Shown one piece after another: positions 14,608 through 29,911 of a stretch of 64,000 bases of DNA. The notes beneath the pieces are model-generated. The model did no database searches. It was not told where the DNA came from and was given only the letters and a program-made list of their open reading frames with translations. Numbering within the stretch: the first letter of the stretch is position 1; each line of letters starts with the position of its first letter. The DNA is from Thermoguttaceae bacterium. Lineage in GTDB: Bacteria > Planctomycetota > Planctomycetia > Pirellulales > Thermoguttaceae. The stretch lies in the NCBI GenBank assembly GCA_029975295.1, contig JARKPK010000052.1, forward strand, positions 1-64,000, in the 5' to 3' direction. The position numbers and the translations under genes are program-made.

Positions 14608-15034
14608 TCGTGCCGCTTGGTGCAGCGCGCAATACCAATGGCGTCTAGGCAACAGGGCGAGGCCGAATAATTGCGGGCAAACATCGATTGCGCCATTGCA
14701 TTGCTCCTCCGGCGATCGGTGAACACGACGGCCGCTTCGTTGTAATTGTGTTCGTGGCCCCTTCCATCGAGATACAACGAACTTCTTGATGCGAGGTTCC
14801 GCACGATTCAGCGCTCTGCCAGTCTGCACCGCGGCCATTCCAATGGGCTTGCCGAAGGCGGGCGTCCTCCTCGTGGCAGGTCGGCGCCGCCACAAACGCT
14901 GCTCGTATTCGCTTGCCGCGAAGCCGGGGCGAGATTATCATGCGATCGAAGGTCGCGGTTTCATTATTTAGACGTGGAACCGATCTCGTCGTCCCGCCGT
15001 TTTTTTGTCCCTCCGATCAGGTGAGGAGTCAACC
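14608..15034. other. Intergenic region with promoter of the FAD oxidoreductase gene
   Basis: 427 bases without a gene. It holds the promoter candidate at 14913-14941, a run of seven T at 15000-15006 not preceded by a GC-rich stem, and the strong ribosome binding site GTGAGGAG at 15021-15028. Confidence 0.6.
14913..14941 (+). promoter_or_regulatory. Candidate sigma70 promoter of the double FAD oxidoreductase gene
   Basis: TTGCCG (14913-14918), a 17-base spacer and TATCAT (14936-14941, 5/6 match). The leader would be about 87 bases and ends in a strong Shine-Dalgarno sequence. Confidence 0.5.
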
Positions 15035-18000
15035 ATGAAGTCTCAGGCTGTTGCTGTCGGTGGTCTTCTGTCGCTTGCATCGGGGCTTTTCATTTGCGGG
15101 GCGATTGGCGAGGCGTTTGCCGCGGGCGGCACGGCGCCGCAGTCGGTTGCGGAGAGCGCTCGGCAGGTGCCGGTGGCCTACGAGGTGGATGTGGTGGTTG
15201 TCGGCGGCGGCACCGGTGCGGTGTCGGCGGCGGTTGAGGCGGCCAAGGCAGGGGCCAAAGTCTTCTTGGCCGCTCCCTATCCGTACCTTGGCGACGACAT
15301 GACCGCCACGCTCCGGCTTTGGCTCGAAGACGGCGAAACGCCGCAAAGCGAACTGGGCAAGCGCATCTTCAGCGACCGCGGTGCGAGCGCGTTGCGAAGA
15401 AACTTGGCTGCGTTCACCTATTCGGCCGATCAGGAAAGTGATCGGACGCATCGCGACACCACTCCACCCAGCCGGCTGTCGGACGGCAAGTTCGGCGAGC
15501 CGGCCAGCGATAGCGTGCAATACAACAGCGATGTGGCCATCACCTGCAACCTCGCTAAGCCGACCGAGTTGGTCCAGCTTCGTCTGTTGGGCTATCATCG
15601 CCAGGCGTCGACGGCCGCGGGCGGCGGCTTCACGATCTCCAGCGTGGAGGTCGAGGGAAGCGACGACGGCTCTCAATGGCGTTCGCTAGGAAAGATGGCC
15701 TTGGAGCCGGGGCAAACGGACGCAATGATCTACACGCTCGACCTACCGAAAAGCACGCGACTGAGCGGTGTACGCTTCAAGGTCGCCAAGCCTGCTGAGT
15801 ATTCGCGAATCCTTTTGGGCGAGATCGAACTGGTGCGTTCGCTCGAAGCGATCGCCCAGCAAAAACGGCCCGCTCCGCGGCCGATGCACGTTAAGAAGGT
15901 GCTCGACCAGGCGCTGCTCGAGGCGGGCGTCGAATACCTTTACTCATGCTACGCCACGGACGTGTTGGTAGATGCGAATGGGAAACCTTCGGGTATTGTG
16001 ATGGCCAATCGCGCCGGTCGGCAGGCGGTGAAAGCCAAGCAGATCATCGACGCCACGGATCGGGCGCTGGTCGCTCGGTTGGCCGGGGCGCAGTTTCGGC
16101 CCTATCCGGCCGGGACGCATACGTTTCAGCGAACAGTGATCTGTCCGCAGGTGGTCGAGGCCGAGGGGGTCGTTGCACGGCTGCCCGCCGCGCCCTACGT
16201 CGGCCCGTACCCGAACAAGGCCAAGACCTCTAGCGGCGAGTTCCAACTGATCGAATACACTCTGAAACTGCCGATGGCCGACGACAGCCATGCGTCGTTC
16301 GCAGCGGCCGATCAGCGGGCGCGAACGATCACCTATCATCCGGAACAGCAGTTCACGGCCGATCGACTGTTCCAAATTCCTCCCGACCCGGTGTTCGCTG
16401 TTGCGGGTTCGGAAGCGATGGATTTCGATGCATTCAATGTATCGCTCGACGTCTGCCGGCCGAGAGGCGTGGAGAACATTTTTGTGCTGGGCGGCTGCGC
16501 CGATGTTTCTCGGAAGGCGGCCGAGAAGGTGTTGCGGCCTTTGGCATTGATCGATTTGGGGGCGCGGATCGGGCGAACGGCGGCAGAAGCCGCCAAAGCG
16601 CGGCCTGCGTTGAGTAACGTGGCCGTTGCGGCGCCGTTGCCGGCCGCCGCGGACACGGGGCTGGAAGTGCGCGAGTTTTTGACCGGTGTCCGCCCCACGC
16701 AGAAACTGCCCAGCGTGCCGCAACCGGCTCGGGGGTTGCCGGTGTTCGGCCGGTACGATGTCGTGGTCGTTGGCGGCGGAACAGGCGGCGCCCCGGCGGG
16801 GATTTCTGCCGCGAGGCAAGGCGCGAAGACTCTGGTGATCGAGTACTTGCACGGACTAGGCGGCGTGGGAACGCTCGGGGCCATTTCCACCTATTACTGG
16901 GGCAATCGGGTAGGGTTCACGGCCACGGTGCCGGGTTCGTCTTGGGTTGTCGAGCAGCGGATGCAATGGTGGCGGTCCGAAATCCTCGACGCCGGCGGCG
17001 ACATCTGGTTCGGCACGATGGGCTGCGGGGCCGTGGTGAAGGGAAATCAGGTGGTCGGCGTTGTGGTGGCTACCCCCGCGGGCCGAGGCGTAGTGTTGGC
17101 CAAAACGGTGATTGATGCCACGGGCAATTCCGACGTGGCGGCGGCCGCCGGCGCGGAAACATATTACACCGATGAGACCGAATTCGGGATGCAGGGCACC
17201 GGTTTGCCGGGGCGTCGGCTCGGCGAAACCTACAACAACACCGATTTCACGATCGTCGATGAAACCGACATGGTCGATGTGTGGCAGATGTACGTTTTTT
17301 CGAAACACAAGTATCCCGACGCGTTCGACCACGGGCAACTGATCGACACGCGCGAGCGGCGGCGGATCGTCGGCGACACGACGATTCGTCTGGTCGATCA
17401 GATTCTGGGACGCACGTATCCCGATTCCGTCGTTCAGGCGCGAAGCAACTTCGACACGCACGGCTACACCGTCGATCCGCTGTTGCTGGTCGAGCATCCG
17501 GAACACAAGGGCTTCAATGTCTATATTCCGTATCGCGCAATGCTCCCCAAGGGATGGGAAGGGATTTTGGTGATCGGGTTGGGCACCAGCGCCCATCGCG
17601 ATGCCGTGCCGCTGATTCGAATGCAACCGGATATTCAGAACCAGGGCTATGCCGCGGGCGTGGCGGCGGCCATGGCTGTGAAAAGCGATCGGCCGCTCCG
17701 TGGAATCGACATCAAAGCGTTGCAGCGGCATCTGGTCGAAATCGGCAACTTGCCCGAGAGCGTGCTGACCGATCAAGACTCGTTCCCGCTGCCCACCGAA
17801 AAGGTGGCCGAGGCGGTGCGCACGCTGCCCGAGGGCGTGGGGGCGGCGGTGATCATGGCCCAGCCGCAAGACGCCTTGCCCTTGCTCCGCGACGCCTACC
17901 GCACGGCGAAAGACGCTGCACGGCTGGAATACGCTCGAATCTTGGCCGTGTTGGGGGATTCGAGCGGTGTGGACACTTTGTTGCACGAGATTCGCCGCCA

Positions 18001-18514
18001 GAATCAGTGGGACAAGGGGTGGAACTACCGCGGCATGGGGCAGTTCGGCGCGGCGCTGAGCCCGCTTGATGGTCTGATCATTGCCGCGGCCCGCACCGGC
18101 CGGCGCGAGGTGCTGCCGGCTGTGCTGGAGAAGGCGGCGCTGCTTGACGCGTCGGTAGAGTTTTCGCACCACCGCGCTATTGCGTTGGCGTGCGAGTTGA
18201 TTGGCGACCCGGCGGCCGCCCCGGTTTTGGCGGAGGTGCTGAAGAAGAAGGGCATGATGGGCCATCATCACGATTCCGTCGCAAAGGCCATTGAACGGGG
18301 TGCCCCGGGCGGCACCAATGCCGAGCAAACCCGCCGCGAATCGCTGCGCGAGCTGATGTTGGCCCGGGCGCTGTTCCGCTGCGGCGACCACGAAGGGTTG
18401 GGCCGTGCGATCCTCGAGAAATACGCGCACGATTTGCGCGGCCACTTGGCCCGTCACGCGCAGGCCGTGCTCGACGAAGCATCGCGGCCGGCCGCGGAAA
18501 AGCCTCGGCGGTAA
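15035..18514 (+). CDS. Secreted double FAD-dependent oxidoreductase with inserted discoidin-like domain
   Basis: A 1159-residue protein with a Sec signal peptide (to about residue 36). The first FAD/Rossmann motif is VVVGGGTGAVSAA near residue 55. Roughly residues 150-265 form an F5/8 type C (discoidin-like) insert, shown by SVQYNSDVAITCNL, ISSVEVEGSDDGSQW and SRILLGEIELVRS. The first oxidoreductase domain then resumes. A second complete FAD motif, VVVGGGTGGAPAGISAARQG, occurs near residue 578, followed by another FAD_oxidored-type domain. The last ~240 residues are helical and HEAT-like. Secreted FAD_oxidored proteins occur in planctomycete and Bacteroidetes polysaccharide loci, where their substrates are mostly unknown. 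Two catalytic units plus a carbohydrate-binding-type insert in one chain is the main oddity. GAGGAG precedes the start. Confidence 0.85.
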   Translation: MKSQAVAVGGLLSLASGLFICGAIGEAFAAGGTAPQSVAESARQVPVAYEVDVVVVGGGTGAVSAAVEAAKAGAKVFLAAPYPYLGDDMTATLRLWLEDGETPQSELGKRIFSDRGASALRRNLAAFTYSADQESDRTHRDTTPPSRLSDGKFGEPASDSVQYNSDVAITCNLAKPTELVQLRLLGYHRQASTAAGGGFTISSVEVEGSDDGSQWRSLGKMALEPGQTDAMIYTLDLPKSTRLSGVRFKVAKPAEYSRILLGEIELVRSLEAIAQQKRPAPRPMHVKKVLDQALLEAGVEYLYSCYATDVLVDANGKPSGIVMANRAGRQAVKAKQIIDATDRALVARLAGAQFRPYPAGTHTFQRTVICPQVVEAEGVVARLPAAPYVGPYPNKAKTSSGEFQLIEYTLKLPMADDSHASFAAADQRARTITYHPEQQFTADRLFQIPPDPVFAVAGSEAMDFDAFNVSLDVCRPRGVENIFVLGGCADVSRKAAEKVLRPLALIDLGARIGRTAAEAAKARPALSNVAVAAPLPAAADTGLEVREFLTGVRPTQKLPSVPQPARGLPVFGRYDVVVVGGGTGGAPAGISAARQGAKTLVIEYLHGLGGVGTLGAISTYYWGNRVGFTATVPGSSWVVEQRMQWWRSEILDAGGDIWFGTMGCGAVVKGNQVVGVVVATPAGRGVVLAKTVIDATGNSDVAAAAGAETYYTDETEFGMQGTGLPGRRLGETYNNTDFTIVDETDMVDVWQMYVFSKHKYPDAFDHGQLIDTRERRRIVGDTTIRLVDQILGRTYPDSVVQARSNFDTHGYTVDPLLLVEHPEHKGFNVYIPYRAMLPKGWEGILVIGLGTSAHRDAVPLIRMQPDIQNQGYAAGVAAAMAVKSDRPLRGIDIKALQRHLVEIGNLPESVLTDQDSFPLPTEKVAEAVRTLPEGVGAAVIMAQPQDALPLLRDAYRTAKDAARLEYARILAVLGDSSGVDTLLHEIRRQNQWDKGWNYRGMGQFGAALSPLDGLIIAAARTGRREVLPAVLEKAALLDASVEFSHHRAIALACELIGDPAAAPVLAEVLKKKGMMGHHHDSVAKAIERGAPGGTNAEQTRRESLRELMLARALFRCGDHEGLGRAILEKYAHDLRGHLARHAQAVLDEASRPAAEKPRR

Positions 18515-22949: not shown

Positions 22950-24416
22950 TCAGCCGACGTGCTGCGCGAGCTTGCGAACGATTTCGCCCTGAGGATCGCG
23001 AATGGTCACTTCGAGAGGCATTTGCCCCGGCAAGCTGTGCGTGGCGCAGCCGAAGCATGGATCGTAAGCTCGAAACGCCATCTCCACCATGTTGAGCAAG
23101 CCTTCGCTCACCTTGCCCTTCTTGATCAAGCCCTGCGCGGCCTTTTTGACCGACATGCAGATCGGCGCGTTGTTGTTCGTTGTGCCGACGATCAGGTTGA
23201 CCTTGGTCAAGATGCCGCGCTCATCGGTGGTGTAGTGATGAGTGAGCGTGCCGCGCGGGGCCTCGACGCAGCCGACGCCGTCGTCGGGCGTTGCCGTCGG
23301 AATCACGCGATACTCTTTGCCGGTGATCTCGGAGTCCGTGGCCAACTCAACCCATCGCTCGGCCGCGTACAGCAACTCGACAAGACGGGCCCAATGGGTG
23401 GCCAACGTGTGGTGAACCGGCTTGCCGCCGAGGGTTTCGTACATCCGCTTGAATTCCGCTTGGGCCAACGGCGTGGCCATCGCGTCGGCCACATTGCAGC
23501 GTGAAAGCGGAGTGGCTTTGTACACGCCGCTGTCGTTGCCGTCGACCAAGCCCTTCCAGCCGACGCTCTTTAAGTAAGGGAACTTCAAATACGACCAGGG
23601 CTCGACGCGCTCTGCGACATGCTGGCGATAGTCCTTCGCATTGTACTTGACCAGTTCCTTGCCGTCGGGATCGGTCACGCGGATCAAACCATCGTAAAAG
23701 TTGGTTCGATTCTGCGCATCGACCATGCCCATATTGTACGTGCGATGCGTATAGTCGCCGCCGGTGATGATCTTAACGTAGTCGCTGTTCTTGAGCACTA
23801 CGTCTTCGAAGAGCTTCAGCGAGAACTTGGCGAACTCGACGGCGTGCCGGCCGAGCTCCTCGATCTCGCGGCGTTGTTCTTCGTTAATGCCCTTGCTCAC
23901 GCCGCCGGGCAAGCCCCAGTTCGGATGAACGCGGCGACCGCCCATCATTTGGATGAGATGATGCCCGTCGTGGCGCATCTTCAGCACTTTGCCGGCGATC
24001 TCCATACCCACCTTTTTCACCACGCCGAGGATGTTCCGCTCGGCGGGCGGGGCGGTCGGGCCGACGACGAAATCGGGACCGCCCAACGCATAGAAGTGCG
24101 TGGTGTGATCGGTGGCGTAGAAGATGCTGTAGAACAGCTCGCGGAGTTTCTTGGCCGTCGGCGGCGGATCGACGTGCCACAGGGCGTCGAGCGCCTTGGT
24201 GGCCGCCATGTGATGCGCCTCGGGACAGACGCCGCAGATGCGGGCCGTCAGGTTGGGCATGTCTTCGGCGGGCCGGCCGACGCAGAACTTCTCGAATCCG
24301 CGAAGCTCGGGAATCTGAAGATACGCGTTGGCCACGTCGCCTTGCTCGTCGAGGAAGATGTCGATCTTGCCGTGACCTTCCAGACGCGTAATCGGATCAA
24401 TCGAAATTCGTTTCAT
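22950..24416 (-). CDS. mvhA: [NiFe] hydrogenase large subunit, MvhA-like (group 3c type)
   Basis: A 488-residue protein, the catalytic subunit that binds the Ni-Fe(CN)2CO centre and oxidises H2. Both signature motifs are intact: RICGVCPEAH at residues 59-68 and DPCFGCATH at 452-460. A 28-residue tail follows His460, so a maturation endopeptidase should cleave it; none is encoded in this window. GHGKIDIFLDEQG at the N-terminus is also typical of the group. It is the last gene of the operon, 49 bases after mvhG. In methanogens MvhAGD feeds electrons from H2 to HdrABC for flavin-based bifurcation, and the gene order here implies the same partnership. F420-reducing FrhA is excluded by the mvhD-hdrA neighbourhood rather than by the sequence alone. 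Confidence 0.95.
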   Translation of the reverse strand: MKRISIDPITRLEGHGKIDIFLDEQGDVANAYLQIPELRGFEKFCVGRPAEDMPNLTARICGVCPEAHHMAATKALDALWHVDPPPTAKKLRELFYSIFYATDHTTHFYALGGPDFVVGPTAPPAERNILGVVKKVGMEIAGKVLKMRHDGHHLIQMMGGRRVHPNWGLPGGVSKGINEEQRREIEELGRHAVEFAKFSLKLFEDVVLKNSDYVKIITGGDYTHRTYNMGMVDAQNRTNFYDGLIRVTDPDGKELVKYNAKDYRQHVAERVEPWSYLKFPYLKSVGWKGLVDGNDSGVYKATPLSRCNVADAMATPLAQAEFKRMYETLGGKPVHHTLATHWARLVELLYAAERWVELATDSEITGKEYRVIPTATPDDGVGCVEAPRGTLTHHYTTDERGILTKVNLIVGTTNNNAPICMSVKKAAQGLIKKGKVSEGLLNMVEMAFRAYDPCFGCATHSLPGQMPLEVTIRDPQGEIVRKLAQHVG

Positions 24417-24465
24417 GGCAAAGAAATCGTTGGGTTCGGGGTTTGGGGGCGAGTTCGGCGGGGGC

Positions 24466-25476
24466 TTATCGGGCCGCGGCCGCCGGCCGATGCACTTCCA
24501 CCTCCACGCCGTTGGGCTTCTTGCTCCGCCGCAACAGGCTGCGCGCTAGGCTGAACCGATAGAACGTGCCGACCGGATCGGGAATGCCTTCGTGAATGAT
24601 CCGGTCGATTTCTTCCGGATCGTTCGAGTCGATCACCGACGCCAATGCGCTCATCAACCGAGCGCCGAAATCGGCCACGCCGTCGTTCGCCCCATGGCAA
24701 CCGATGCACGGCGAATTGACTTGCGGGCAAAGGGCCTTGCAACCGGCGCGCGTGGCGACACCGCAGCACACCAGCCCCTGCTCGAGCAAGCAGGTTTCTT
24801 CGTCGGGCTGAATCTGCCACGTGCGGTAGAACTTCTTGATCTTCTTTTCGTTCCGCTTTCGCGGGCACTCGTCGCACACCGTGGTGTTGCGGCCGATGAC
24901 CGCGCCCTTCGGCGGCAGCTTGTTCTCGATAATCGCCGTCAGCGCCGCCCAAATGTTTTCAGCCTCGGGCGGGCAGCCGGGAAGGGAGTAGTCCACCTCC
25001 ACCGTCTGATCGAGCGTGCGCAGCGTGTCGTAGAACACGGGGAGGTAGAGCGTGCCCTCGGGCACCTTGGTGTGCGGCTGCGGCCGCAGGTCTTGCGGGT
25101 TTTCGCAGTGGGTCATCTCACCCTGCTTGTACACCGCGTCGAAGATCTCTCGCTTCGTGTTCACATTCGACAGGCCCGGAATGCACCCTTCGCTGGCGCA
25201 CGAACCGAAGCTCACCAGAACCTTCGACTTGCGGCGCAACAACTGCGCCATGTATTCCTGTTCGCTCGTGCGGATGCCGCCGTTGAACAGGCAGACGTCG
25301 ATGCTCCCATCGGGGAGCTTCTCGACATCGCGGACCTTGCCGTCGGCCGCGCAGGGCCAGAAGACGATGTCGAACAGCTCGGCGACTTTGAGAATCTTCT
25401 CGTCGATCGCCAGCACCGCGATCTCGCAGCCGCCGCACGAGGCCGCCCAGTAGATGGCCAATTTGCCCTTGCTCAT
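24466..25476 (-). CDS. mvhG: [NiFe] hydrogenase small subunit, MvhG-like
   Basis: A 336-residue protein carrying the [4Fe-4S] relay from the Ni-Fe site toward MvhD. The proximal-cluster ligands are visible as CGGC (C14 and C17), GSCASEGC and PGCPP. The C-terminal third is ferredoxin-like and rich in cysteine (CDECPRKRN, CLLEQGLVCCG, CKALCP, CIGCHG), enough for the medial and distal clusters. There is no Tat signal, so the enzyme is cytoplasmic, consistent with group 3c. Its start overlaps the 3' end of mvhD by four bases, indicating translational coupling. The family resembles complex I NuoB, but the cysteine-rich C-terminus and the mvhA partner settle the assignment. Confidence 0.95.
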   Translation of the reverse strand: MSKGKLAIYWAASCGGCEIAVLAIDEKILKVAELFDIVFWPCAADGKVRDVEKLPDGSIDVCLFNGGIRTSEQEYMAQLLRRKSKVLVSFGSCASEGCIPGLSNVNTKREIFDAVYKQGEMTHCENPQDLRPQPHTKVPEGTLYLPVFYDTLRTLDQTVEVDYSLPGCPPEAENIWAALTAIIENKLPPKGAVIGRNTTVCDECPRKRNEKKIKKFYRTWQIQPDEETCLLEQGLVCCGVATRAGCKALCPQVNSPCIGCHGANDGVADFGARLMSALASVIDSNDPEEIDRIIHEGIPDPVGTFYRFSLARSLLRRSKKPNGVEVEVHRPAAAAR

Positions 25477-25970
25477 GCTTGCACCTCCATCGCCTCGGCG
25501 TGTTCGTGTACGATTTCTTCAAGGGCCTTGAGCCGTTCCGGCGACTCTTCCCAGTTCCGCGACCAACAGAGCGGTCCGAGCTTGCGGACATCGGCCACCA
25601 ACGCGTCGATATGCTCAGCCAAAAGTTGGCCCTCCGCGGCCGAGGCCCAAACAAGCCGCACCCGTTCCGGCTCGACGCCCATCGCCGTCAGCGTGTGTTT
25701 CAGCATGGCGTACCGCCGCATCGCTTTGTAGTTCTGTTCGATGTAGTGGCACTCGCCCGGGTGGCATCCGGCGATCATCACGCCGTCGGCTCCCTGGGCC
25801 AACGCCTTGAACACAAAGCTCGGATCAACCCGCCCGCTGCACATCACGCGAATGATCCGCACGTTCGGGGCGTACTTGATCCGCGCCGAACCGGCCAGAT
25901 CGGCCGCCCGGTACGAACACCAGTTGCACAAAAATCCCACGATTTTCGGCTCGAAGTTCTCGTTGCTCAT
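25473..25970 (-). CDS. mvhD: MvhD/FlpD-like hydrogenase iron-sulfur subunit
   Basis: A 165-residue protein, the [2Fe-2S] linker that passes electrons from the hydrogenase to HdrA. Conserved cysteines are C15 and C18 (FLCNWCSY), C44 (VMCSGRVD), C69 and C74 (GCHPGECHY). The length fits the MvhD/FlpD family (about 140-170). The ORF is open for 82 further codons upstream, but that part is arginine-rich and non-conserved in character. MSNENFEPKIVGFLCNW is the natural start. It lies 139 bases after the hdrA stop and overlaps mvhG by four bases. Presence of this subunit is the clearest sign that the hydrogenase docks onto Hdr. Confidence 0.94.
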   Translation of the reverse strand: MSNENFEPKIVGFLCNWCSYRAADLAGSARIKYAPNVRIIRVMCSGRVDPSFVFKALAQGADGVMIAGCHPGECHYIEQNYKAMRRYAMLKHTLTAMGVEPERVRLVWASAAEGQLLAEHIDALVADVRKLGPLCWSRNWEESPERLKALEEIVHEHAEAMEVQA

Positions 25971-26109
25971 CGCTTCGTCAGCCCAAGAGTTCTTATAGAA
26001 AAATGTCTTCCACGCATGTCGGCGACGCATGCTGTTGCCGTTGGGCGGCCGCACGAGCGCCTGCGGCGCGCCGACCGCCGCCGAGGCGATGCGCGCCGCT
26101 CTTGCGCCC

Positions 26110-28116
26110 CTATCGGCCGCCCTCAGTCGCGGCCGCGGCGGGCTGCGCATCCCACAGGATTCCCTCGATCTCCGCGTAGATCTGCTCGTTCTTGAAATGT
26201 GCGCCGCTGATCGCATCGCACGGGCAGGCCGCCACGCACGTGCCGCAGCCTTTGCACATGGCCGTGATCACGCGGCTGACGTTCTTGGTTTCGTCAAACT
26301 CGATGGCGTTGTACGGGCACATGTTGTTGCACACGCGGCAGCCCGAACACGACTCCTCGTCGATCGAGGCCACGATCGGCTCGATCATCACTTTGCCGTT
26401 GGTGATCATTCCGGAGATTCTTGCCGCGGCGGCCGCCCCTTGAGCGACGGCCGCGGGAATGTCCTTCGGGCCTTGGCATACGCCGGCGACGAACACGCCG
26501 TCCGTCATGGTGGCCACCGGGTCGAGCTTCGGATGGCGTTCGGTGAACCAACCGGCCATGCTGCACGAAATGCCGCACTTCAGCCCCATTTCCTTGGCGT
26601 CGGCTTGCGGCTCCATCGCGCCCATCAGAATCACCATGTCCACCGGCAGCCGCTTCTGTTCGCCCAGCAGGGTGTCTTCATACTGAACGATCAGCTTGCC
26701 TTGTTCTTCGGGGCGCCGCGCCGCGTCGGTCACTTCGGCCACCCGTCCGCGGACGAAATGCATTCCCTCTTCCAGCAGCCGTTGATAGAACTCCTCGTAG
26801 TCCTTTTGATTGGGCCGCATGTCGATGTAGAACGAGTACACCTCGGCGTTGGTTTTTTCCAAGACGAGATGGCCGAACTTCATCGCCGCCATGCAGCAAA
26901 CGGCCGAGCAGAAGCTGTTGTATCGGGAATCGCGGCTTCCTACGCAGTGGATGATCGCCACGCGTTGCGGCTCCGTCTTCCCGTCGCGGAGCACGATCTT
27001 GCCGTTGGTCGGACCGGCGGCATTGCACAACCGCTCGAACTCGAGATTGGTGTATACGTTGGCCAGGCGGCCGAAACCGTAATTGGGCAGCCGCTTGCAG
27101 TCGAACAGTTTCCACCCGGTGGCCAGCACGATGTTGCCGACTTCCAATTCGACGATCTCGTCTTGCTGGTCGTAGCGCACCGCGTCGGTCGGGCAGACTT
27201 TCGAACACACCTTGCACTTGCCCGACTGAAAATACGTGCAGTTCGCCGTATCAATCACCGGCACGCGCGGCACGGCCTGCGGAAACGGGGTGTAGATCGC
27301 CTTGCGATAACCCAGGCCGGCTTCAAAGTCGTCGTCGACGACTTTTCGCGGGCACTTCTCCACGCAGATTCCGCAACCGGTGCACTTGTCGTAATCGACA
27401 TAGCGGGCCCGCTTGCGGATTTTCACCTTGAAGCTGCCGACCGAGCCGCTCACTTCCTCCAGCTCGGAGTAGGTGAACATTGTCACGTTCTCGTGCTGGC
27501 CTACTTCCGACATTTTCGGCGTAAGGATGCAGGCCGAGCAGTCGAGCGTGGGAAACGTCTTGTCGAACTGGGCCATGTGCCCGCCGATCGACGGCTCGCG
27601 TTCGACAAGGTACACCGGGTAGCCGGCGTCGGCCAGTTCGAGGGTCGCCTGCAAACCGGCGATGCCGCCGCCGATGACCAGCGTGGCCGGGTTCACTTTG
27701 ACGAAGAACGGCTCGAGCGGTTGCTGGTGCTTTACCCGCTCGGCTGCGGCCGAAACCAGCGACTTGACCTTTTCCGTGCCCGCCTTCTTGTCGTTGTTGA
27801 CCCAAGAGACGTGCTCGCGGACGTTGGTCATGTGGCAAAGATAGGGATTCAATCCGGCGTTTTGGCACGCGCGGCGGAAGGTCTTTTCGTGAAGGTGGGG
27901 CGAACAGGCGGCCACCACGACCCGTGTCAGGCCTTCCTTCTTGATATCGTCTTCGATCAATTGCTGGCCGAGCGACGAACACATGAACTTGTAGTCGCGA
28001 GCCACGGCCACGTCTCGAATGTTCTGCCCCGCCCAGCGCGCGACCTCTTCGCAATCGACCGTGCCGGCGATATTGCTGCCGCAGTGACACACGTAGATGC
28101 CGACCTTCTCGGCCAT
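26110..28116 (-). CDS. hdrA: Heterodisulfide reductase subunit HdrA, electron-bifurcating flavoprotein
   Basis: A 668-residue protein and the bifurcation core. The N-terminal domain (CHCGSN, residues 10-15) is typical of HdrA. The FAD motif VIGGGIAG is at 147-154 and a conserved DCSAC at 192-196. Ferredoxin-type clusters are at C245/C248/C251/C255, C293/C301/C304/C308, C590/C593/C596/C600 and C621/C624/C627/C631. The CX11CX3CC pattern at 391-408 matches the non-canonical flavin-proximal cluster of methanogen HdrA. Electrons from MvhD would split between a low-potential ferredoxin and the HdrBC branch. GGAG lies seven bases before the ATG, so the upstream extension to 28236 was rejected. Neighbours are hdrB (76 bases upstream) and mvhD. 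Confidence 0.96.
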   Translation of the reverse strand: MAEKVGIYVCHCGSNIAGTVDCEEVARWAGQNIRDVAVARDYKFMCSSLGQQLIEDDIKKEGLTRVVVAACSPHLHEKTFRRACQNAGLNPYLCHMTNVREHVSWVNNDKKAGTEKVKSLVSAAAERVKHQQPLEPFFVKVNPATLVIGGGIAGLQATLELADAGYPVYLVEREPSIGGHMAQFDKTFPTLDCSACILTPKMSEVGQHENVTMFTYSELEEVSGSVGSFKVKIRKRARYVDYDKCTGCGICVEKCPRKVVDDDFEAGLGYRKAIYTPFPQAVPRVPVIDTANCTYFQSGKCKVCSKVCPTDAVRYDQQDEIVELEVGNIVLATGWKLFDCKRLPNYGFGRLANVYTNLEFERLCNAAGPTNGKIVLRDGKTEPQRVAIIHCVGSRDSRYNSFCSAVCCMAAMKFGHLVLEKTNAEVYSFYIDMRPNQKDYEEFYQRLLEEGMHFVRGRVAEVTDAARRPEEQGKLIVQYEDTLLGEQKRLPVDMVILMGAMEPQADAKEMGLKCGISCSMAGWFTERHPKLDPVATMTDGVFVAGVCQGPKDIPAAVAQGAAAAARISGMITNGKVMIEPIVASIDEESCSGCRVCNNMCPYNAIEFDETKNVSRVITAMCKGCGTCVAACPCDAISGAHFKNEQIYAEIEGILWDAQPAAAATEGGR

Positions 28117-28192
28117 GAGCGTTCTCCGTCTCAAACGAACATCATCATCGTGGGAATCGATCAAGGGAACACGTCGGCGCCGCGGGGGCGCC

Positions 28193-29086
28193 TCAACCGC
28201 TCGACGCCATCGCGCCGTTAAGCTTCGCCTTGACAACCGGCATGGCGGCCACCAACTCTTTGCCGAAACCGAGCTTCTTCGGCTCGATGCCGAAGGCCAG
28301 GCCGAGGATCTGCGTGAAGTACATGATCGGCAAGCGGAAATTCGTATTGAAGTGCTTGTTGACCCGCGCCTGATAACCGTCGAGGTTCAACTGGCACATC
28401 GGGCACATGCACACGATCATGTCCGCCTCGTACTCGGCAGCGCTTTGCAAGAGCCGGCGGATGAGTTCAAACGCCTGCGGCTCGCTGATCTGGGTCATGT
28501 GGCCGCCGCAGCAATGCGCCTTGACCGGATAGTCCACCACCTCGGCCCCGAGCCACGAAAGCAGGCGGTCCATCTTCGTCGGATATTCCGGGCTGTCGCC
28601 GTTGTCGAGCGGGCGGACAACCTGGCAACCGTAATAGGGAGCAAAACGCAGCCCAGCCAATGGACGCGAAACCTTGTCGCGCACGGCCGTTTCGCCCAGG
28701 TCATCGACGATCACGTCGAGCATGTGGCGGACGGTCACTCGCCCGGGGCGATAAGAAAGCCCGCCAGCGGCCAGCGCTTCGTTGACTTGCGAACCCAATT
28801 GAGGGAACTTGCCCATCAAGTGGTCCACTTTCTTAAGGTTCAAGTAGCACGCGGCGCATGGGGCCACCAACTGGTTGAGCTCGGGCTCGACCAGCGCCAG
28901 GTTTCTCGCGATCACCGAACAGGCGGTCAGTTCATCCTGCGAGAAGTACTCCGTCGCGCCGCAGCAATTCCAGTCTTCCAGTTCGACGAGCTTGATGCCG
29001 AGCAAATCGGCCACGGCCTTGACCGAAACGTCGTAGGCCGCCGCGTTGCACTCGAGCGAACACCCGGGGTAGTAAGAGTATTTCAC
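28193..29086 (-). CDS. hdrB: Heterodisulfide reductase subunit HdrB, double CCG domain
   Basis: A 297-residue protein. Two complete CCG repeats are present: C9, C41-C42, C77-C80 and C154, C192-C193, C228-C231. In HdrB these hold two non-cubane [4Fe-4S] clusters where the disulfide is reduced. All ten cysteines are retained, so a disulfide-reductase-type site should be functional. The start is a GTG preceded by a near-perfect GGAGGTGA. That GTG overlaps a TGA that closes a small upstream frame. Bacteria are not known to make CoM-S-S-CoB in general, so the physiological acceptor is open. Confidence 0.95.
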   Translation of the reverse strand: MKYSYYPGCSLECNAAAYDVSVKAVADLLGIKLVELEDWNCCGATEYFSQDELTACSVIARNLALVEPELNQLVAPCAACYLNLKKVDHLMGKFPQLGSQVNEALAAGGLSYRPGRVTVRHMLDVIVDDLGETAVRDKVSRPLAGLRFAPYYGCQVVRPLDNGDSPEYPTKMDRLLSWLGAEVVDYPVKAHCCGGHMTQISEPQAFELIRRLLQSAAEYEADMIVCMCPMCQLNLDGYQARVNKHFNTNFRLPIMYFTQILGLAFGIEPKKLGFGKELVAAMPVVKAKLNGAMASSG

Positions 29087-29397
29087 GTCCGCGTCACCTC
29101 CGCTTCAGCCCCAGACGCACCGCAACGATCGCAATTGCGCGGCTTGGGCTCGGGTTGTCCTTCTAATTGACTGTTGTTCCACTCGGAAAATTGCGGTCGA
29201 TTCCACTGGCGGCGAGCCTTCCGAAGAATCGTCGCCGGCCCTTCAGCGGAAGCGGGCTCGCTGGGCCGCTTCCGAAACGCTTCGGGCAGGGGCCTCGGTT
29301 TATCCCCCGACCCAATGGGCCAACCTCCATTAGCGGCCGGCGTGTTGTTGGGCGCCGATTTGGCGAGCCTTCTTGATGATTGCCTGGAGTTGACCAA
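29083..29397 (-). CDS. Possible small gene between hdrC and hdrB
   Basis: A frame of up to 104 codons whose first part overlaps the end of hdrC out of frame. The part outside hdrC encodes about 80 residues, Pro/Arg-rich and ending with a CxxC (NCDRCGASGAE). Its TGA shares bases with the GTG start of hdrB, a pattern typical of coupled genes, and it fills a 243-base gap in an otherwise compact operon. No family is recognised, no good start was seen outside hdrC, and composition is biased, so it may be chance. Confidence 0.2.
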   Translation of the reverse strand: MVNSRQSSRRLAKSAPNNTPAANGGWPIGSGDKPRPLPEAFRKRPSEPASAEGPATILRKARRQWNRPQFSEWNNSQLEGQPEPKPRNCDRCGASGAEAEVTRT

Positions 29398-29911
29398 TGT
29401 TCTTGATCTTCGACGGCGTCAACGCCATGCGACCGCGCGAGAACATGGCCATGCCCATCGGGCCCATCGCCATCATCTTCAAAGGCCGGTTAAGCAAGTG
29501 GTACCCGGTTGCCAAGCCGAATTCGAAGCTCCGTCCATACTTGTCGACGTAGCCGGTGAACGTCTGAGCAAGGGCGACCGCGTCGGTTTCTTTGTAGGCC
29601 TTCTCGGCGATCGAAAATCGCTTGCAGGTGTAGATTATGTCAGTAATTGGAATCTCTTGCGGGCAGCGGCTGGTGCAGAAGTAGCACGAAACGCACGCCC
29701 ACAGCATGTTCGACGAAAGCACCTGCTCTCGCTCGCCGGCGCGAATCATGTTGATGATCGCCCGTGGGGTGTGGTCCATGTCGGCCCCGCTGGGGCACGA
29801 TCCCCCACAAGTGCCGCATTGAATGCAATGCACCAGGCGCTCGCCGCCAGGAGTGCTTGCAATCACCCGCTCGATGAAGGTTCCCTTTTTCAGCGTTGTT
29901 TTTCCACTCAT
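29330..29911 (-). CDS. hdrC: Heterodisulfide reductase subunit HdrC
   Basis: A 193-residue iron-sulfur protein that relays electrons from HdrA to HdrB. Two [4Fe-4S] motifs are complete: C29/C32/C35/C39 (CIQCGTCGGSCP) and C73/C76/C79/C83 (CVSCYFCTSRCP). It is the first gene of the hdrCBA-mvhDGA operon. GGGAG stands nine bases before the ATG. The upstream region carries a TATAGT -10-like element and three TTGCGAAA-type repeats. HdrE and membrane anchors are absent, so the complex is the soluble cytoplasmic kind. Confidence 0.95.
   Translation of the reverse strand: MSGKTTLKKGTFIERVIASTPGGERLVHCIQCGTCGGSCPSGADMDHTPRAIINMIRAGEREQVLSSNMLWACVSCYFCTSRCPQEIPITDIIYTCKRFSIAEKAYKETDAVALAQTFTGYVDKYGRSFEFGLATGYHLLNRPLKMMAMGPMGMAMFSRGRMALTPSKIKNIGQLQAIIKKARQIGAQQHAGR

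Follow-up and report, generated by a model that had tools for sequence, protein, structure and literature searches.

We analyzed a 64,000-nucleotide stretch of the genome of a Thermoguttaceae bacterium (Planctomycetota; GenBank assembly GCA_029975295.1, contig JARKPK010000052.1, positions 1 to 64,000; hereafter the window), which carries a complete gene set for an HdrABC-MvhADG complex, the assembly of heterodisulfide reductase and [NiFe]-hydrogenase known from methanogens. All six open reading frames (ORFs) lie on the minus strand within 29911-22950, in the order HdrC-HdrB-HdrA-MvhD-MvhG-MvhA. Judging from its genes, the locus should encode a soluble complex of a type conserved in Thermoguttaceae and Anaerolineae. 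We consider it probable that this complex is a reversible flavin-bifurcating hydrogenase linking H2, ferredoxin and a disulfide, and that its high-potential partner is neither the heterodisulfide of coenzymes M and B (CoM-S-S-CoB) nor DsrC. The original prediction, made from the bare sequence, had claimed a complete HdrABC-MvhAGD set in a planctomycete at 22950-29911 with its metal-binding motifs intact. Both claims were borne out, the first by Pfam, NCBIfam and PDB matches of the six ORFs and the second by the cysteine motifs of HdrB, HdrA and MvhA.

Identity and arrangement of the six subunits

In a PDB sequence search, the top match of every subunit is a chain of a methanogen Hdr complex. 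The best E-values over the six subunits range from 1.4e-20 to 6.5e-212, and chance is therefore excluded for the six identities. The strongest match is that of HdrA (26110-28116, 668 residues) to 5odc_A (E 6.5e-212, 52% identity). HdrA has a flavin adenine dinucleotide (FAD)-type domain and iron-sulfur motifs, shares 28 cysteines with the aligned 5odc_A, which has 31, and carries the CX11CX3CC pattern at residue 391. Its ORF is open as far as 28236, with the ATG at 28116 favoured by homology. HdrB (28193-29086, 297 residues) starts with a GTG preceded by GGAGG, has two Pfam CCG domains and matches 9sfi_C (1.7e-43), 8rvv_B and 5odc_B; its ten CCG cysteines are C9, C41, C42, C77, C80, C154, C192, C193, C228 and C231. 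HdrC (29330-29911, 193 residues), with Fer4 families of Pfam, has 8rvv_C (1.4e-20) and 8rvu_c as its best PDB matches, and two C-X2-C-X2-C-X3-C motifs of the [4Fe-4S] type (CIQCGTCGGSC at residue 29 and CVSCYFCTSRC at 73).

The motifs of the hydrogenase part are intact too. MvhA (22950-24416, 488 residues), a [NiFe]-hydrogenase large subunit (PF00374) of the group 3c type, matches 5odc_F (5.6e-112) and has the L1 motif RICGVCPEAH from residue 59 and the L2 motif DPCFGCATH from residue 452, followed by a C-terminal tail of 28 residues. MvhG (24466-25476, 336 residues) is a hydrogenase small subunit (PF01058) matching 5odc_E (2.6e-59). MvhD (25473-25970, 165 residues; ATG start at 25970 backed by homology) has an FlpD domain (PF02662, 178.5 bits) and matches 8rvu_F of the Elp-Hdr complex (7.8e-45), 8rvv_F and 5odc_D.

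From HdrC to MvhA the genes are separated by 243, 76, 139, -4 and 49 nt, the negative value being a 4-nt overlap of mvhG and mvhD. Shared strand, spacing and synteny suggest that the six genes form one operon. The HdrC-HdrB gap of 243 nt in the window compares with overlapping genes in two relatives (L039 and L065; L, G and C numbers denote loci, genomes and contigs, respectively). Promoter-like and terminator-like sites did not exceed those in shuffled sequence.

The window, contig C175 in our numbering, belongs to a genome of 5,011,136 bases that is 99.99% complete. The MvhD gene is the sole FlpD match in this genome, so a second MvhD was ruled out. Seven CCG matches were found, two of them being the HdrB gene of the operon. 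The other five lie at three loci; inspection by eye assigned them to the LutA, GlcF and FAD-oxidase types, and a second classical HdrB was ruled out on this basis.

HdrB fold and diverged sites

HdrB is the subunit expected to meet the acceptor. Its AlphaFold model (pLDDT 88.9) agrees with methanogen HdrB structures at TM 0.89-0.91 and a root-mean-square deviation of 1.7-1.8 A (Foldseek). None of the ten cluster cysteines varies across the 77 aligned rows, which comprise the window, three methanogens and 73 of the 81 relatives (L046, L047, L048, L097, L108, L132, L167 and L183 were omitted). A site was called clade-fixed if the three methanogens agree and another residue occupies it in at least 93% of a set of 45 rows made up of the window, 27 Thermoguttaceae and 17 Anaerolineae. 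At 37 sites the clade residue is fixed and differs from the one common to the three methanogen HdrBs. Many of these sites adjoin cluster cysteines (P7, S10, N40, G43, T45, A79 and M230), and the second CCG domain has diverged sites near the clusters as well (Y151, H196 and T198).

The same alignment revealed an extra cysteine, C226, two residues before the cluster cysteine C228. Of the 27 Thermoguttaceae rows, 89% have it, while this position is mostly T in Anaerolineae and mostly another residue in other groups. We also considered selenocysteine in HdrB. Several family genomes have one in-frame TGA in the gene, but where read it is C-terminal (query residues 282-296), and these codons were taken as plain stops and the idea was dropped.

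The complex thus resembles the HdrABC-MvhAGD of methanogens (5odc, 9sw2) in having all six subunits, the HdrA cysteines (28/31), the HdrB cysteines (10/10), L1 and L2, the FlpD domain of MvhD and the HdrB fold. It differs in that its HdrB is only about 30% identical and carries the 37 clade-fixed differences, in NCBIfam scores below the cut-offs, in the lack of a ComA match, and in having the six genes in one run.

Proposed reaction

By analogy with the methanogen complexes, H2 would be split or made by MvhA, and electrons would pass through MvhG and the [2Fe-2S] cluster of MvhD to the FAD of HdrA. At this flavin the electrons would be bifurcated: one would go to ferredoxin, the other by way of HdrC to HdrB. 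At the two non-cubane clusters of HdrB, a disulfide, or a sulfur compound resembling one, would then be reduced to thiols. The whole reaction would be reversible. With less certainty, we suggest that the substrate of HdrB may be neither CoM-S-S-CoB nor DsrC and that the complex may keep ferredoxin, thiols and H2 in balance in a family that ferments and makes H2. Two modes can be envisaged: the complex would evolve H2 by confurcation when H2 is low, or take up H2 by bifurcation when it is high.

A number of observations weigh against this interpretation. The complex is known here from its genes. Compared with the curated NCBIfam models (equivalog or exception models of methanogen CoB-CoM heterodisulfide reductase and hydrogenase), all six proteins score below the cut-off: 185.4 versus 345.15 for HdrB, 804.5 versus 1100 for HdrA (HdrA2), 82.6 versus 160 for HdrC (TIGR03290), 375.6 versus 800 for MvhA (VhuA model), 212.6 versus 450 for MvhG and 117.5 versus 215 for MvhD (VhuD model). 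An altered function, even a loss of bifurcation, is thus possible. For MvhA, both 9sw2_F and a chain of the non-Hdr enzyme NiFe-HydABCSL, 7t2r_D, come near 5odc_F (1.5e-109), and given this closeness MvhA taken alone would be less specific for an Hdr complex. The 37 HdrB sites suit a substrate other than CoM-S-S-CoB, but plain divergence could give the same picture. Many of these changes recur in other bacterial HdrBs: P7, W39, G43 and Y151, among others, are fixed there too and appear to mark bacterial HdrB in general. The methanogen side of the comparison is thin, consisting of three related sequences, and the sites were placed by alignment rather than by pocket coordinates. Finally, the [FeFe]-hydrogenases of the same genome (see below) could carry H2 flux.

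Candidate acceptors of HdrB

DsrC was rejected as the acceptor because neither the window genome nor G167, a genome of the same family, gave a match, while it was present in 3 of the 12 genomes searched. ComA likewise had no match in the window genome, in agreement with the expectation in the original prediction that the organism lacks CoM and CoB. However, this search is a poor test for CoM, since it missed the control methanogen Methanosarcina acetivorans and matched Bacillus subtilis in addition to Methanocaldococcus jannaschii. Its only hit among the 12 genomes was a weak partial match in G167 (6.5e-5). Moreover, the CoM/CoB check covered ComA only, with CoB genes, other CoM routes and Mcr outside it. 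The missing DsrC and ComA matches speak for the interpretation given above, the weakness of the ComA test against it.

These results bear on an alternative in which the complex uses CoM-S-S-CoB or a close analogue, with the cofactors made by other routes. CoM does exist in bacteria (Xanthobacter), the HdrB fold is nearly that of methanogens, and the ComA search fails for one methanogen. Nevertheless, considering the lack of a ComA match in the window genome and the replacement of methanogen-common HdrB residues at 37 sites, we regard this alternative as very unlikely.

In another scenario, HdrB would reduce polysulfide, persulfide or a small-thiol persulfide derived from elemental sulfur, making the complex a soluble H2 (or ferredoxin):sulfur reductase. 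Thermogutta reduces sulfur, which speaks for such a role, as do the lack of a DsrC match and the HdrB residues near the clusters that are unlike those of methanogens. Yet Pfam scanning of the operon neighbours yielded no sulfur gene, and no sulfur-gene cluster was seen around the operon in the compared loci (clusters named by eye). We therefore consider the sulfur route unlikely.

We return to the interpretation with a disulfide partner distinct from CoM-S-S-CoB and DsrC. A more specific version of it is that the HdrB of one bifurcating hydrogenase, common to Thermoguttaceae and Anaerolineae, acts on a thiol disulfide or a sulfur carrier belonging to an undescribed anaerobic thiol couple. We put this version forward tentatively, at somewhat less than an even chance.

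Distribution and descent

To see how widespread the gene set is, we used an alignment of seven MvhA sequences to scan the genomes of GTDB and kept the best 80 of at least 585 confirmed relatives. The same six-gene order is present in 37 of these 80 loci; in 24 others the sequence available upstream of mvhA is shorter than 6 kb, and the remaining 19 are arranged differently. By title, 23 of the 37 belong to Chloroflexota lineages and 7 to Planctomycetes lineages. In six of the 37 (L079, L101, L117, L126, L135 and L139) the HdrA match is split in two pieces. The HdrABC-MvhADG gene set thus appears to be common in anaerobic bacteria and no bacterial oddity.

Within the phylum, 49 of 392 sampled genomes have an MvhA match at an E-value of 1e-30 or better. 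In 15 of the 49 the identity is at least 49% (with partial matches only in G223 and G099), while the matches in the other 34 (28-45% identity) were judged to represent other hydrogenase groups. No MvhA match was found in the 10 sampled genomes from other families of the same order. Among 101 genomes of the family, HdrB has a match at 1e-40 or better in 72 and none in 29. Identity reaches at least 63% in 32 of the 101, the window genome included (in G460 over 136 residues only), and in 40 the best match is 30-43% identical. G167, a single contig of 4,810,751 bases, has the same six-gene order, with MvhA 78% and HdrB 70% identical to those of the window. G167 falls into the same genus as G453, a genome in which MvhA and HdrB do not differ from the proteins of L071 (titled Thermogutta sp.).

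Phylogenetic trees of MvhA and HdrB were constructed after removing rows with less than 85% coverage; both are quick trees supported by SH-aLRT values alone, and the HdrB tree was flagged for meeting long branches. Among the 95 rows of the MvhA tree, the window falls into a 15-row set (support 100). Of these rows, 8 are titled Planctomycetota, 5 are the window and 4 family loci, and the last two are one Gemmatimonadetes and one Anaerolineales bin. The HdrB tree has 85 rows and places the window in a 30-row set (support 100): 6 rows are titled Planctomycetota, and the other 24 are the window plus loci of the family, some of them sharing a genome. Together with 17 Chloroflexota this set forms a larger one with support 99. 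An MvhA phylogeny had been suggested along with the original prediction; the window does group with Planctomycetota, but the MvhA set is not exclusive to planctomycetes. The tree sets fit inheritance of the complex within Thermoguttaceae, with an old link to Anaerolineae. An earlier tree (PMC6085437) likewise had an MvhA clade with Chloroflexi.

Four loci of other family genomes (L185, L189, L193 and L194) have distant HdrC, HdrB, HdrA and MvhD (HdrB 33-37% identical), with no MvhA or MvhG match within the stretch read. In L185, these genes are followed by one for a 4Fe-4S protein.

Acceptor modules and neighbouring genes in relatives

The comparison of loci suggests that the acceptor side varies among relatives. 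In L070 (1215-6471), EtfB, EtfA and two CCG proteins precede hdrA-mvhDGA in place of HdrBC. MvhA of this locus is 82% identical to that of the window, HdrA is complete and 75% identical, and one of the CCG proteins has a Nar-gamma-like part; this is possibly a hydrogenase-HdrA complex tied to acyl-CoA or menaquinone redox. HdrA of the planctomycete locus L073 (MvhA 79%) is divided into two pieces, of which one has a NuoE-type domain; the locus also encodes a NuoF-like protein. In L042 (MvhA 61%), mvhDGA is preceded by MetF, a CCG protein and only a 54-residue HdrA-like ORF. L126 keeps HdrBC, and its HdrA contains an inserted GltD/NfnB-like FAD-NAD(P) domain that recalls HdrL of Desulfobacterium autotrophicum (PMC2702500). 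This insert (Fer4_20 and Pyr_redox_2) was identified with Pfam in L126 (5121-8453) and L041 (1398-5093), at about residue 289-300 of the window HdrA; L079, L122 and L135 show the same insert by gap pattern, Pfam having been run on the first two loci.

Given such exchanges, the electron acceptor of HdrB could be a protein or enzyme with its gene elsewhere (a thioredoxin-like or lipoate protein, methylene-tetrahydrofolate reductase, electron-transfer flavoprotein) rather than a small disulfide. Acceptor-type genes do occupy the same place in L070 (EtfBA), L073 (NuoE/NuoF-type) and L042 (MetF). However, L070 and L073 have no classical HdrB at the operon, whereas HdrB is intact in the window, and no such partner gene stands beside the operon in the window, L065, L066, L068, L069, L071 or L072. 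A protein acceptor therefore seems improbable to us, about as much so as the sulfur route. The intact HdrBC of the window argues instead for a disulfide-type acceptor.

For the neighbourhood survey, we grouped the ORFs of the window and 81 loci into clusters and viewed those of at least three loci, most of which were named by eye. The counts are lower bounds because gene calling was incomplete: even MvhA was called in 80 of the 82 sources rather than in all. Among these clusters there is no conserved neighbour that would name the HdrB acceptor. Outside the operon, the cluster that spans the most loci is that of a HycI-type protease (52), followed by those of a cyclic-nucleotide-binding protein (15), of Hyp genes (up to 12) and of a response regulator (7). 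Enzymes are confined to few loci: a NuoF-like protein in 8 (one of them L073), a fumarate-reductase-type flavoprotein in 4 and its iron-sulfur partner in 3, and pieces of 2-oxoacid:ferredoxin oxidoreductase, pieces of cytochrome b and transketolase in 3 each. None of these rare enzyme clusters is present in the window.

Several relatives have in-frame TGA codons at catalytic or cluster cysteines, which are likely to encode selenocysteine: L042 and L006 (both G008) in mvhA and mvhD, L112 in mvhA, mvhD and hdrA, L085 in mvhD and hdrA, and L096 and L109 in hdrA. In MvhA of G008 both L1 cysteines are affected (UGVU), in that of L112 the second one; the other sites are C69 of MvhD and C196 of HdrA. 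The selenocysteine motif of MvhA is tabulated as UxxC, with VhuU as an example, in PMC13188914. We take UxxC to be an L2-type site, and selenocysteine in L1, doubled in G008, looks unusual. A selenocysteine tRNA was sought in L042 only, where none was found.

The window itself also encodes, on the plus strand at 15005-18514, a protein of 1169 residues. Pfam matches it to FAD_oxidored in four stretches and, below the cut-off, to F5/8 type C. We saw no tie between it and the operon.

Hydrogenase maturation and ferredoxin metabolism

Genes for hydrogenase maturation and for ferredoxin-using enzymes, which the original prediction had proposed to look for, were both found elsewhere in the genome. 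HypA-F and a HycI-type protease are all encoded. C15 carries HypD and HypF together with HypC and HypE (the latter two named by eye), C127 carries HypB, and C36 carries HypA, the protease and a cyclic-nucleotide-binding protein. The last of these (L198, 4284-4808), a small protein in which Pfam sees the cyclic-nucleotide-binding domain only, adjoins the protease and HypA; a matching cluster occurs in 15 of 82 sources, and in relatives such as L067 it adjoins mvhA. As for ferredoxin, pyruvate:ferredoxin oxidoreductase is encoded on C84, Rnf-type subunits have two matches on C30 (none in G167), and there are four [FeFe]-hydrogenase domain matches. By their annotation, these enzymes show ferredoxin metabolism.

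Relation to known systems

The original prediction drew attention to the occurrence of the set in a bacterium, and here it overstated the case. In addition to the distribution described above, PMC2702500 describes mvhADG beside hdrA in a bacterium as early as 2009, in the sulfate reducer D. autotrophicum, as well as an Mvh:Hdl complex of Archaeoglobus profundus. The D. autotrophicum cluster shares with the window a bacterial mvhADG beside hdrA, but that organism has selenocysteine forms, many Hdr paralogues and Dsr sulfate reduction (same source), whereas the window genome has no DsrC match. Closer to the window, a group 3c hydrogenase of Thermogutta terrifontis, THTE_4311-4313, was reported in 2017, and H2 from its fermentation was ascribed to group 3c and/or [FeFe] enzymes (PMC5673643). 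In the main text of that paper, 'hdr' and 'heterodisulfide' have 0 occurrences and the hydrogenase alone is named. THTE_4311-4313 is probably the same complex as that of the window, provided that G167 is that strain, as we infer. Two Thermoguttaceae isolates from digesters reportedly carry genes for two bidirectional hydrogenase complexes (PMC11929135). Our literature search, confined to papers available without subscription, listed none with HdrABC of Thermoguttaceae in the title or in the displayed part of the abstract; PMC9137090 was the one paper in which both 'heterodisulfide reductase' and 'Thermoguttaceae' occur.

What stands of the novelty is that the acceptor is not named by DsrC, ComA or the neighbours. 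The acceptor question is real, but not special to this genome, as HdrABC homologues of non-methanogens have already been proposed to reduce other disulfides, e.g. DsrC (PMC5296606).

Other Hdr systems differ from the window in their modules. The original prediction had allowed for a bacterial partnership of the HdrABC-FloxABCD type. The HdrABC core is common to both, and DsrC is the proposed partner in Desulfovibrio; in the window, however, MvhADG adjoins HdrABC instead and the genome has no DsrC match. No Flox gene was identified beside the operon, in a search that did not extend to the rest of the genome. With MetFV-HdrABC-MvhD of Moorella, the window shares the HdrABC core and MvhD, but its input module is the hydrogenase MvhAG. 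No methylenetetrahydrofolate reductase domain was seen in the ten window proteins scanned with Pfam, the scanned neighbours on both sides included, the rest of the genome not being searched. The sHdr sulfur-oxidation system has two HdrB/HdrC pairs and a lipoate-binding protein, whereas the window genome has one classical HdrB (LbpA was not searched for).

The type of complex is therefore already known; new is this well-preserved member, and the question of its HdrB substrate is real and testable. Outside methanogens and sulfate reducers that substrate is unsettled, and the window genome is a fairly clean case because it has one HdrABC-MvhADG, a maturation set and no DsrC or ComA match. Since a cultured relative, the genus Thermogutta, exists, the question can be taken to pure culture. 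Thermoguttaceae also offer a natural experiment on the extent to which a bifurcating complex can swap its acceptor module, because L070 has EtfBA and other CCG proteins in the place of HdrBC. If the tentative proposal made above is true, an undescribed thiol couple would, in fermenting bacteria, connect the pools of H2, ferredoxin and disulfide.

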